Below are positions 10,302-34,459 of a DNA stretch of 40,565 nucleotides, one piece after another. Both the position numbers and the translations under genes were made by a program. Source of the DNA: Acidobacteriota bacterium (GTDB lineage Bacteria; Acidobacteriota; UBA6911); the NCBI GenBank assembly GCA_017860135.1, contig JAFNAG010000016.1:1-40565 (forward strand), read 5' to 3'. The notes beneath the pieces were generated by a model. The model was not told the origin of the DNA and did no database searches. It worked only from the letters and a program-made list of their open reading frames with translations. The stretch's first letter is position 1. The number at the start of each line of letters is the position of its first letter.

Positions 10302-12395
10302 ATGGATACTGCCGAACTGCTTGTGGAACTTGGTACCGAGGAGGTCCCCGCCTCCATGCTCGAAGATGCCACCCGGCAATTCGCCCGGCTGCTGATCGAC
10401 GGGCTGCACGCGGAGCGTCTGTCCGCGGAAACCGGAGAGGTCTGGTGCACTCCCCGTCGCATGATCGTTGCCCTGAAATCGGTTCCGAAGCGGCAGGAGG
10501 ACCTCATGGAAACCATCCTGGGGCCGCCCCGAAAGGTCTCCTTTGACGCGGACGGAAAACCGACCCGTGCTGCAATTGCCTTTGCGGAGAAAAACGGCGT
10601 TCCGCTCGCACGGATTCGGATCGTCGACACTCCCAAGGGAGAATACCTGACCGCCCGGCGAAAACAGAAAGGGGAGAGCACCGCGCGTGTCCTGCAGCGG
10701 GTCATCCCCGCCGCCATCGGGGGAATCCAGTTTCCGAAGTCCATGGTGTGGACCGCGGACAAGTTCCGTTTTGCCCGCCCGCTGCGATGGATCGTGGCTC
10801 TGTTTGCGGGGAAGGTTGTGAGATTCACCGTCGCCGGCGTCCCCTCCTCACGCTTCACCCGGGGCCACCGGTTTACGGGAAAGTCCCGGATCCCGGTGAG
10901 CGGCGCCGAGGCACTCCGCGAGTCTCTGCGGGAGAACGGCGTCATCGTGGACCCCGCGCAGCGTGCCCGGATGATTCGCACGGGCCTCGATCAGGCCGCT
11001 GCGGAGGCCGGCGGCAGGCTGCTGCCGGACGAAGACCTTCTGGCCACCGTGGTCAACCTCAATGAGTGCCCCTCCGTGGTGCGGGGCGCCTTCGACAACC
11101 GCTTCCTGGATCTGCCCGGGGAAATCCTGATCACCGTGATGCGGGAGCACCAGAAATACTTTTCGGTCGTGGACCCGGATGGGCGCCTGCTCCCGTATTT
11201 CCTCGCCGTCATCAACACCAGCGGGGATTCTGGCGGCAAGATCCGCGGCGGGCACGAGCGCGTGCTGCGTGCCCGCTTCGCGGACGCCGCCTTCTTCTGG
11301 AATACCGATCGCAAGATCCCGCTGGGAGAGCGGGAATCATCGCTGAAGGGTGTGTTGTTCCAGCAGAGACTCGGATCCTATGCGGACAAAACCCGCCGCA
11401 TTCTCGCCCTGCTGCCCCATTTGACCGGCCCGGCGGGCTGCGGCTCGGCACCTACCGGGGTGGAAACCGCCGCGCACCTGATGAAATGCGATCTCGTGAC
11501 CGAAATGGTCAAGGAATTCACGGATCTGCAGGGTATTGTCGGCGGACTGTACGCTAGGGCGGAAGGATACCCGGATACAGTGTGGCGCGCGATCTACGAG
11601 CAGTACCAGCCGAAGAGCACCGCATCCCCATCCCCTTCCACCCTGCCGGGCGCAGTGCTTTCGCTTGCCGACCGCCTGGACACGGTGTGCGGATGCTTCT
11701 CGGTGGGACTGATTCCAAAGGGGTCGAAGGATCCGTTCGCCGTCCGCAGGCAGGGAAACGGTTTTCTCAAGATCCTCCTCGACCACCATATCCGGCTGTC
11801 ACTGGACCGCCTGATCGCCGCGGGCCTCCAGGCGCTCGACGCCGATTCGCAGGAAACTGCCGCGGAAATCAAGAGGTTTTTCGAGGGGAGGCTGCGATTC
11901 CTGTTTGAGGAAGCGGGATTCTCCTACGACTGCATCAACGCCGCGCTGGCTGCGGGATACGATGACCCCGCCGATGCCGCCGAACGCGTGCGCGCGCTGC
12001 AGGAGCTGCGCCAGGAACCCGATTTCCTGGCATTGGCATCGAGTTTCAAGCGCGTCATGAACATCCTGGCACAGTCGGAAGCATCGGAGGATCTGCCGCA
12101 ACCGGATCTCATGAGCGATGCCGCCGAGATCGCACTCTTTCAGCGCTATCTTGAAATCGTCCCGGAAGTGGAAGCAGCGCGCAACAACCGCCAATACTCT
12201 GCAGCCCTGCGCCTGATGGCCTCGTTGCGGGGAGCCGTCGATGAATTTTTCGAACAGGTGCTGGTCATGGCCGAAGATCCCGCGCTGCGCAGGAACCGCC
12301 TGGCACTTCTCCGCGGGCTTGCCCGCCAGTTTCTCAGCGTCGCGGACATCTCCACTACCTTTGTCCCTTGGCCCGCAGATTTGAACCCGTTTTAG
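10302..12395 (+). CDS. glyS: Glycyl-tRNA synthetase beta subunit
   Basis: tRNA-binding beta subunit of the tetrameric enzyme, 697 aa, the normal length. The N-terminus LLVELGTEEVPASML, the segment FPKSMVW near residue 146, the HD-like core (LVTEMVKEFTDLQGIVGG, then YARAEGYPDTV) and the C-terminal anticodon-binding-type helices (FEQVLVMAEDPALRRNRLALL) are all present. The stop codon itself lies inside a REP-like repeat (cgttttag...), so the gene end is fused to the repeat discussed below. Confidence 0.97.
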   Translation: MDTAELLVELGTEEVPASMLEDATRQFARLLIDGLHAERLSAETGEVWCTPRRMIVALKSVPKRQEDLMETILGPPRKVSFDADGKPTRAAIAFAEKNGVPLARIRIVDTPKGEYLTARRKQKGESTARVLQRVIPAAIGGIQFPKSMVWTADKFRFARPLRWIVALFAGKVVRFTVAGVPSSRFTRGHRFTGKSRIPVSGAEALRESLRENGVIVDPAQRARMIRTGLDQAAAEAGGRLLPDEDLLATVVNLNECPSVVRGAFDNRFLDLPGEILITVMREHQKYFSVVDPDGRLLPYFLAVINTSGDSGGKIRGGHERVLRARFADAAFFWNTDRKIPLGERESSLKGVLFQQRLGSYADKTRRILALLPHLTGPAGCGSAPTGVETAAHLMKCDLVTEMVKEFTDLQGIVGGLYARAEGYPDTVWRAIYEQYQPKSTASPSPSTLPGAVLSLADRLDTVCGCFSVGLIPKGSKDPFAVRRQGNGFLKILLDHHIRLSLDRLIAAGLQALDADSQETAAEIKRFFEGRLRFLFEEAGFSYDCINAALAAGYDDPADAAERVRALQELRQEPDFLALASSFKRVMNILAQSEASEDLPQPDLMSDAAEIALFQRYLEIVPEVEAARNNRQYSAALRLMASLRGAVDEFFEQVLVMAEDPALRRNRLALLRGLARQFLSVADISTTFVPWPADLNPF

Positions 12396-12686
12396 AGCGC
12401 GCGGGCTGAAGAGGGTGTCCAACGGTTGCACCACGGCAAGCTGAGGCGCAAAGCGCCGGAAGTGAATAGCACCGCGCGTCAGCGCGGGGTTAGGGCGCGG
12501 CCATAACCGAGGCCCGAAGGGCCGGCACATACTGCATATTTTCAGGAATTTAGTGCCGCACCTACGGCGCTCAACCACGCTCCATCTCTATCCCGGCCTG
12601 ACGGCCGGGCCTGTTTATTGCCGGCCCTTCGGGCCTCGTCGGACCGTGAAACAACCGTTGGACACCCTCCGAAGCCCATGCTCACT
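12388..12686. repeat. REP-like 36-nt palindrome split by an insertion
   Basis: Left part 12388-12411 (ending ggctGAAG) and right part 12671-12686 (starting GAAGccc) rejoin, dropping one GAAG, to a 36-mer that matches the intact copy at 33204-33239 at 33 of 36 positions. The reconstructed stem is roughly gcgcgggc/gcccatgc around a TGAA loop. The glyS stop codon lies in its left end. Confidence 0.75.
12412..12670. mobile_element. MITE-like foldback element with 17-bp inverted ends
   Basis: A 259-bp element without coding capacity. Its ends are perfect 17-bp inverted repeats: agggtgtccaacggttg (12412-12428) and its complement (12652-12668), plus two unpaired bases at the right. A further five-base match follows after three mismatches. 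Inside are five GC hairpins: ggcgc/gcgcc (12445-12457), ccgcgc/gcgcgg (12472-12487), ggccc/gggcc (12511-12523), cccggcc/ggccggg (12592-12609) and a second ggccc/gggcc (12622-12634). The arms at 12509-12527 and 12619-12637 are also complementary to each other. GAAG flanks both sides as a probable target duplication. No transposase is nearby. Confidence 0.75.
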
Positions 12687-15755: not shown

Positions 15756-15774
15756 GCCCGCCTCGCATGGTGGG

Positions 15775-16038
15775 TGCGATCGGAAGTGGAACTCACAATC
15801 TTCGGTGGAATTCGGACAAAAGGACGCGTCGCGCAGCGATTCACGACAGAATTTATCAATTGTCAATGGTCATTTGTCATTTGGTGCTGCGAGCTCTTGA
15901 CCTGTGTGGTCGAGGTGCTGCGAATAGGGGCAGGCTCGCGATTCTCCGTGACGAAGCTCCAAATTAATCCAAACGAAAATGACAATTGACAAATGACATT
16001 TGACAAATTTCTTTTTGTTGGATTCCACTCCGATTGCA
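15775..16038. repeat. Foldback element, family TCATTTGTCAT, copy A
   Basis: About 264 bp bounded by inverted ends: tgcgatcggaagtgg (from 15775) and ccactccgattgca (to 16038). Nested inside is a second inverted pair of degenerate heptamer-type repeats: gtcaatggtcatttgtcat (15862-15880) against the complementary run in 15975-16007. It shares a 27-nt block (15854-15880) at 26/27 identity, and a 13-nt block gtcgcgcagcgat (15828-15840) at 12/13, with copy B at 26792-27038, which lies in the opposite orientation. It is bordered by imperfect 12-nt direct repeats gcctcgcayggt (15760-15771 and 16039-16050). No coding capacity. Confidence 0.75.
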
Positions 16039-16077
16039 GCCTCGCACGGTTGCACGGTTTCAGAACGGTCGAAATGA

Positions 16078-16182
16078 GCTTCACCATGGAGAACACGGGG
16101 CACGCCGAGAGCAGCACCGGTTGGGCTTTCGGGTATTACCGGTGCATCTCCAAAACAGACTTCTCTGAATCCTCAGTTCTCT
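16078..16182. repeat. CACAGAG-type foldback repeat, copy 1
   Basis: The left arm gcttcaccatggagaacac (16078-16096) is 18/19 identical to 20118-20136. The right arm around 16161-16182 reads, in reverse complement, agagaactgagg, matching the same arm. The sequence gggaatgagccg after it (16185-16196) also recurs at 20169-20180. An additional perfect 8-bp pair gcaccggt/accggtgc lies at 16114-16145. Confidence 0.55.
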
Positions 16183-16247
16183 CCGGGAATGAGCCGCGCT
16201 GCGGTGATGCGCCGGATCGATTGGTGGGGTGGTGGGAACCTCGCAGG

Positions 16248-20121: not shown

Positions 20122-20237
20122 CACCACGGAGAACACTGAGGACACAGAGCAACGATGCCTCAGGATCGGGGAATGAGCCGGCGCTCGCATGATTCGACGC
20201 CAGTCAATTCTCTGTGCTTTCAGTGTGCTTTGTGGTG
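20122..20237. repeat. CACAGAG-type foldback repeat, copy 2
   Basis: Two 28-nt arms in inverted orientation: caccacggagaacactga... (20122-20149) and ...tcagtgtgctttgtggtg (20210-20237), matching at about 22 of 28 positions around a 60-nt loop. It lies between the convergent xerD and lptFG stops, so a transcript from either side would form the hairpin. Relatives are at 16078-16182 and 34229-34255. Confidence 0.6.
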
Positions 20238-26791: not shown

Positions 26792-27038
26792 GCAATCGGA
26801 AGTGAGACTCAACCCAGGAGAATCTGTCGATTATCATTTGTCAAATGTCATTTGGGGGCCCGGCAGGTTGGCTCTGTGCTCGGGTACTTCACGCGCTCCG
26901 AACACGATCAGGACGGCACGGACCGAAGGTTTGCAGCGGCCAGATGACAAATGACCATTGACCATTGATACATTCTTTTATCGTTGATCGTTGCGCGACC
27001 TGAATTTTGCGAGCATTGAGCCTCACACTTCCGATTGC
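26792..27038. repeat. Foldback element, family TCATTTGTCAT, copy B
   Basis: About 247 bp with inverted ends gcaatcggaagtgagactc (from 26792) and a near-complement ending cacacttccgattgc (27038). Inner inverted arms lie at 26831-26853 and 26944-26970. Relative to copy A it is inverted: 26944-26970 in reverse complement equals 15854-15880 at 26 of 27 bases, and 26987-26999 equals 15828-15840 at 12 of 13. The centre (about 26860-26940) shows no obvious similarity to copy A. Confidence 0.75.
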
Positions 27039-27142
27039 ACCCCCCGAAAGCGACAGCGGCGGGAGCCGGGCAAGGGCCAAGGAACCGGCATCGAAGTGGC
27101 CATTGACCCGCGGCCGGATTTCGATATCCTGTCAACTCAAAG

Positions 27143-34228: not shown

Positions 34229-34255
34229 GCCACAGAGAACACCGCAGACACAGAG
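34229..34255. repeat. CACAGAG-type repeat, copy 3 (single arm)
   Basis: gccacagagaacaccgcaga followed by cacagag, 22 of 27 identical to 20123-20149. A weak right-arm remnant ttctctgt lies at 34307-34314. Confidence 0.5.
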
Positions 34256-34323
34256 AAAGGCATTGGCCGGCCCTTGGTGTGTTACCGCTGCATCCCAAAC
34301 ATGAGATTCTCTGTACTACTCAC

Positions 34324-34359
34324 CTGAAAATCCTCGCCAAAAAGGAAAGGATTTTTCAG
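34324..34359. repeat. Inverted repeat in the moxR-DUF58 gap
   Basis: ctgaaaatcct (34324-34334) pairs with aggatttttcag (34348-34359) with one bulged base and a 13-nt loop. There is no U-tract after it on the minus strand, so attenuation is possible but unproven. Confidence 0.45.
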
Positions 34360-34376
34360 CACCACGGAATATCGGC

Positions 34377-34420
34377 CGGTATCGGCATCGGGACCGCAAT
34401 CGCAGTCGCAATCGCTATCG
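34377..34420. repeat. GATAGC-type degenerate repeat, copy 2
   Basis: Hexamer-based run (cggtatcggcatcgggaccg, then caatcgcagtcgcaatcgct). On the opposite strand it aligns unit for unit with 27143-27170 apart from one extra 12-nt unit. Confidence 0.5.
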
Positions 34421-34459
34421 AAAACGGTGCATGATCCGACGCCTCCGTGCTGAGGTTTT

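Follow-up and report, generated by a model that had tools for sequence, protein, structure and literature searches.

CACAGAG-type hairpins of an acidobacterial genome as probable gene-less forms of a small element carrying a GxxExxY nuclease gene

Introduction

The nearest concept to the repeats described here is the REPIN/RAYT system, in which REP doublets go together with a Y1 tyrosine transposase (Bertels and Rainey 2011, PMC3116915). Our hairpins resemble REPINs in being short, dispersed, two-armed and inverted, in lying mostly in spacers, in occurring as many gene-less and few gene-bearing copies, and in that the gene encodes a small nuclease and is flanked by matching arms. However, the enzyme is a PD-(D/E)XK nuclease and not an HUH tyrosine enzyme, the arms are period-8/9 CRCNRAG arrays without GTAG or CGTC tags, and the RAYTs of the same genomes use other repeats. 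MITEs offer a further comparison. As in MITEs, short versions that lack the gene but keep inverted ends have multiplied beyond the gene-bearing form, and the hairpins of the genome studied here combine terminal inverted repeats with multiple homologous short copies; unlike in MITEs, the single gene encodes a nuclease of ~120 aa and not a known transposase, and the arms are short-period arrays. With free-standing homing endonuclease genes the element shares a small nuclease gene, often in conserved gene junctions, and a pattern of presence, decay and absence across species, whereas the flanking inverted arrays and the many copies without a gene that accompany it in a genome set it apart. Foldback elements are known from eukaryotes. 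Their long inverted ends of short tandem repeats are a resemblance only, and they differ in size and enzyme.

The small mobile element with a GxxExxY gene between its arms is apparently undescribed. Our searches, which lay outside the subscription literature and support no claim of priority, found no published description of it, and queries with the repeat letters came back empty. Among 5.39 million papers, two name GxxExxY and one names PF13366; where examined, these mentions are incidental. NCBI annotates GxxExxY proteins by motif only.

Results

The window analysed here is the whole 40,565-nt stretch of contig JAFNAG010000016.1 from an Acidobacteriota bacterium (assembly GCA_017860135.1). 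The first-pass annotation had placed three intergenic copies of a repeat at 16078-16182, 20122-20237 and 34229-34255, sharing a 27-28-nt arm, and both a re-reading of the sequence and an unsupervised repeat search (family D2) recovered them. Its idea of a short-period repeat was upheld as well: each arm is a period-9 array built of three CACNGAGNN units, the arms are mutually inverted, and CACGGAGAACACAGAG, with up to three mismatches, occurs four times in the window where 0.34 occurrences would be expected. A partner arm had been seen in two copies. This is correct for copies 1 and 2, but copy 3 likewise has an inverted partner, split by a nested insertion.

Copy 1 comprises a 5' arm of three drifted period-9 units (CCATGGAGAACACGGGGCACGCCGAG, 16084-16109, forward strand), a loop (16110-16160, forward) and a strongly drifted 3' arm (TTCTCTGAATCCTCAGTTCTCTCCGG, 16161-16186, reverse). 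It lies between codirectional lpxD and PEP-utilising-enzyme (PPDK-type) genes and its folding is weak (z -1.9). In copy 2 a 60-nt loop (20150-20209, forward) separates the 5' arm (CCACGGAGAACACTGAGGACACAGAG, 20124-20149, forward) from the 3' arm (CTCTGTGCTTTCAGTGTGCTTTGTGG, 20210-20235, reverse); this copy sits, as had been noted, between the convergent genes xerD and lptFG, and it is a strong hairpin (z -3.7 and -5.4 on the two strands). Copy 3 begins with its 5' arm (CCACAGAGAACACCGCAGACACAGAG, 34230-34255, forward) and loop (34256-34306, forward), followed by the inner part of the 3' arm (TTCTCTGT, 34307-34314, reverse), a CGAT-type repeat of ~128 nt (ACTACTCACCTGAAAATCC..., 34315-34442, no strand assigned) and the outer part of the 3' arm (CTCCGTGCTGAGGTTT, which begins CTCCGTGCTGAGGTTTTT; 34443-34458, reverse), ending beside the moxR stop codon. 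Its neighbours are the codirectional moxR and DUF58 genes, and the uninterrupted part folds no better than shuffles. An Rfam search with nine loci gave no match to a curated family.

The genome of origin is a 6.05-Mb assembly of 715 contigs, whose context statistics come from retrieved stretches and a home-made gene caller. Across all of it, CCACNGAGNNCACNGAGNNCACNGAG with at most two mismatches had 50 matches, about ten of which represent the sibling arm type CACAGATTT, compared to none for a reversed control; two sibling arm types, CCACAGATTTCACAGAT and CCACGAATTTCACGAAT, have a period equal to that of the CACNGAGNN arms. We gathered ~30 CACNGAG loci, in which two inverted arms form a hairpin, dispersed in extragenic space. 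The free-standing hairpins, of ~105-125 nt, are the window copies and those on contigs C41, C344, C276, C462, C343 and C581; the others ride in a larger inverted-repeat element with ends TATACACAGCGTCATAAGT. Copies 1 and 3 and the C276, C462, C344 and C581 hairpins have homologous loops (z 6-10, 0/400 shuffles), and a second, weaker group joins the loop of copy 2 to those of C41 and C343 (z 3.6-4.4). Since hairpins at separate loci have loops in common, the gene-less unit itself has multiplied.

Arms were found in 55 of 297 genomes in a phylum-wide scan, scattered across 35 genera. In genus g49, hairpins occupy identical gene junctions in several species, including secY|adk, sufD|sufS and rpsG|fusA, and at sufD|sufS three of the four species first examined have a loop ORF, which encodes a GxxExxY protein, a PD-(D/E)XK nuclease; the loop ORF between CACAGAG arms matches TIGR04256 (E 2e-46) and PF13366 (E 2e-44). 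For an association test, GxxExxY genes were gathered without reference to arms, giving 51 loci with enough flank. Arms were called where the inverted match between upstream and downstream flanks lay above the shuffled 99.9 percentile, and control positions were set ~700 nt outward in the same loci (n=46). Matching inverted arms were present at 42/51 GxxExxY loci and at 0/46 control positions, leaving about a fifth of the loci without clear arms, and 17% of mismatched flank pairs passed the same threshold, as expected with shared arm types.

The arm unit types vary among these loci (CACAGAGA, CACGAAGA, CGCAGAGA, CACAAAGA, CACCGATGAA and CACGAATTT), and arm similarity follows nuclease identity (Mantel r 0.60, 0/5000 permutations, uncorrected for genome relatedness). 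Across the 297 genomes, 46 have both arms and gene, nine arms only, 60 the gene only and 182 neither, an odds ratio of 15.5 that is likewise uncorrected for relatedness; for period-8 arms among 60 relatives the corresponding counts are 14, 4, 7 and 35, with the same reservation about relatedness. The family to which our genome belongs includes GxxExxY genes with arm types of our genome, CACGGAGGACACGGAG in genome G004 and GCCACGAATT in G013. G004 itself is a case of extreme expansion, with 709 period-8 arm matches and eight GxxExxY matches.

Outside this phylum, named plasmids of Bacteroides finegoldii, Gemmatirosa kalamazoonensis and Bernardetia (Bacteroidota and Gemmatimonadota) carry the same arms round GxxExxY (0/500 shuffles each). 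At a Sphingomonas GxxExxY locus an arm-like array is confined to one side, and at a Persicobacter locus there is none. On Sphingomonas parapaucimobilis plasmid NZ_CP155749 (locus L366) the GxxExxY gene stands between fabD and fabG, in a fatty-acid operon. Where the neighbours are a tandem pair, the GxxExxY gene is codirectional with them in 28/34 cases. The PD-(D/E)XK residues and the G, E, Y motif are kept in 53-54 of 54 proteins, and this conservation of catalytic residues and motif indicates that the nuclease is under selection. Viral contigs yielded no GxxExxY by sequence or profile search, and PDB sequence searches returned nothing credible.

The sufD|sufS junction was followed through genus g49 by searching 41 species with the joined sufD and sufS flanks and extracting the spacer. 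Seven species have the complete arm-gene-arm arrangement, of 426-461 nt. Arms enclose the first 14 codons of the GxxExxY gene in G329, the last ~18 codons in G302 and, in G193, a probable 3' gene remnant that is weak alone; G141 has a bare 74-nt hairpin, G261, G324 and G313 have single-arm scars, and the spacer of G315, G207, G200 and G317 is 0-42 nt long with no arm. Gene fragments are clear in two loops (L381 and L387), while the L277 loop, significant against one of three genes, is by itself only weakly supported as a gene remnant. Given this series from full element through fragments, bare hairpin and scar to empty site, the bare hairpins at sufD|sufS are deletion products, that is, gene-deleted forms of the arm-gene-arm element. 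Some junctions show an old insertion followed by loss, which is evidence for decay and not for spread. Neither target-site duplications nor excision products nor transposition events were seen, and no occupied and empty sites made a clean pair similar enough for a duplication to be read. In three other species (G320, G240 and G179; loci L388, L390 and L386) the junction is taken up by 650-1170 nt of unrelated sequence and is therefore a possible hot spot for insertions.

Discussion

We estimate a probability of about 0.7 that the CACAGAG hairpins represent a gene-less, non-autonomous version of a small element in which a GxxExxY gene lies between an arm and its inverted counterpart. The complete element is about 430-460 nt long, and in each arm a degenerate CRCNRAG-type unit of 8-9 nt is repeated, the two arrays being mutually inverted. 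It is directly observed that arms and nuclease form one genetic unit, that they are associated in several phyla, that arm type varies together with nuclease sequence and that the element decays step by step to a hairpin at one junction. In the genome of origin no GxxExxY gene was detected, so the link of the window to the element rests on shared arms. Between the arms of the window copies there is neither a GxxExxY gene nor a fragment of one, and their loops have no recognisable derivation from it. Given these absences in the copies and the genome, we file the window copies only as presumed gene-less derivatives; they are most likely relics of a GxxExxY nuclease element, copy 3 having been interrupted by the CGAT-type repeat.

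How such an element might move can be sketched from these patterns. We infer that the nuclease confers mobility and that the arms are what it binds and cuts, whether as duplex, cruciform or single-strand hairpin. Elements would spread by copying into short intergenic spacers, through breakage and repair and possibly on extruded hairpins. The gene-less hairpins would have been spread in trans by a nuclease since lost from the genome or missing from the assembly; as our genome has no detectable GxxExxY gene, its hairpins may now be orphans, or the assembly misses their source. On a wider scale, GxxExxY nucleases and their short-period inverted arms may be a separate class of bacterial mobile element, widespread among phyla. 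A lone PD-(D/E)XK nuclease would here copy itself and many gene-less hairpins into intergenic spacers by acting on DNA in hairpin or cruciform form, so that the system would parallel REPIN/RAYT while using an unrelated enzyme. This broader proposal is tentative, and we place it a little short of even odds. The link to CACAGAG/CACGAAG-type hairpins gives a likely and testable role to the very common and unstudied GxxExxY family, and would explain why the repeat recurs in distant bacteria of many phyla. It also sets beside REPIN/RAYT another, independent system in which a small nuclease is surrounded by a cloud of hairpins lacking the gene.

Among other explanations, the first-pass annotation had raised a function in RNA, proposing that copy 2 could serve as a bidirectional terminator or stability hairpin and that drifted arms which still pair hint at constraint or at a degenerate short-period process. 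A selected role as transcription terminator in both directions, or as a hairpin that stabilises mRNA, would fit the place of copy 2 between convergent genes, its strong fold on both strands and the occurrence of hairpins at several g49 gene junctions in several species. We nevertheless consider it very improbable. There is no excess of convergent pairs, with 14 tandem, 5 convergent and 2 divergent copies in our genome against a background of 238/59/58, and the g49 hairpins divide into 43 tandem, 2 convergent and 5 divergent. Many copies are inside operons: g49 hairpins lie tight between the stop and start codons of codirectional genes, and the spacers within secY-adk, sufD-sufS, rpsG-fusA and moxR-DUF58 are filled by copies. 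At copy 2 (20124-20235) we found no terminator-like site and no T run or U-tract after the stem, and its convergent xerD|lptFG junction is kept in six relatives without the hairpin. Nor do the arms covary within families. In our genome, arm identity at variable positions was 0.564 against 0.413 in shuffles (0/2000), a signal that we had to reject as a sign of constraint: under within-family shuffling it was 0.653 against 0.658 for copies carried by the larger repeat, and the three free-standing copies in which both arms are clean gave 0.524 against 0.492; since covariation vanishes under this stratification we read the signal as shared ancestry. In 53 g49 elements the arms are uncoupled (0.356 against 0.398 shuffled). 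Their agreement is, if anything, slightly below chance, with 1959/2000 shuffles at least as high, which perhaps reflects selection against perfect palindromes. Intergenic hairpins of this kind should not be read as terminators, though an effect on mRNA stability is conceivable.

The remaining alternatives concern origin. The hairpins could be an independent repeat family and GxxExxY a site-specific parasite, a homing-type nuclease gene entering their loops, with the bare hairpins being targets or vacated sites. The window loops, which are not gene-derived, and a genome with many hairpins and no gene would suit this reading, as would the targeting of arms by other repeats, for the CGAT-type element sits at CTCTGT in several copies. 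We think it unlikely, however, given that arm unit type tracks nuclease sequence, whereas a parasite entering pre-existing hairpins could have a history separate from theirs, and that several short sufD|sufS hairpins hold gene fragments and are therefore younger than the gene insertion. Replication slippage with template switching could by itself make period-8/9 inverted arrays with no element involved; the arms are indeed degenerate short-period arrays, and several further arrays of this sort exist in our genome. Such a process would leave unexplained the tie to one nuclease family in several phyla, the tracking of the protein by arm type and the shared loops at distant loci, and we regard it as highly improbable. 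Scarcely credible, finally, is the view that the repeats are REPINs moved by a RAYT (Y1 transposase). The outward likeness of dispersed hairpin doublets with many gene-less copies speaks for it, as do RAYT-type genes in 6/7 genomes searched, two of them in our own, but many RAYT genes are flanked by their own GC-rich palindromes, which shows that the flank test can detect the repeats of an established system, and a CACNGAG arm lies within 350 nt of only 1/30 RAYT genes, on one side, compared to both sides of 4/6 g49 GxxExxY loci checked likewise. Moreover, G142 has 21 arm matches and no RAYT.

Several other repeats were met along the way. The CGAT-type repeat consists of inverted arrays of GATTCC/GATAGC-like units and is found repeatedly in hairpin arms at CTCTGT/CACAG(A/C)G, in the window (34315-34442) and at L051, L063, L069, L071, L076, L077 and L080; a CGAT-related repeat fills the xerD|lptFG spacer of the relative G007 (L125). 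Repeats are nested at L055, L056, L066, L067, L054 and L051, where the TATACACAGCGTCATAAGT-ended element contains a CACAGAG hairpin and this in turn a GC-rich hairpin. A CCACGAATTTCACGAAT hairpin is found inside a second inverted-repeat element, whose ends are GTTTAGCCAGCCCGAAGAAG (L074:3404-3572, L057, L052 and L062). Several other short-period inverted arrays are present in the same genome. In the window, another repeat occurs on opposite strands at 15769-16041 and 26792-27045; its outer ends, GGTGCAATCGGAAGTG..., are inverted, and period-7 arrays (TGTCATT) lie within. Finally, 12394-12488 and 12592-12686 form an inverted repeat adjoining a gene end, with 95-nt arms that are 71% complementary.
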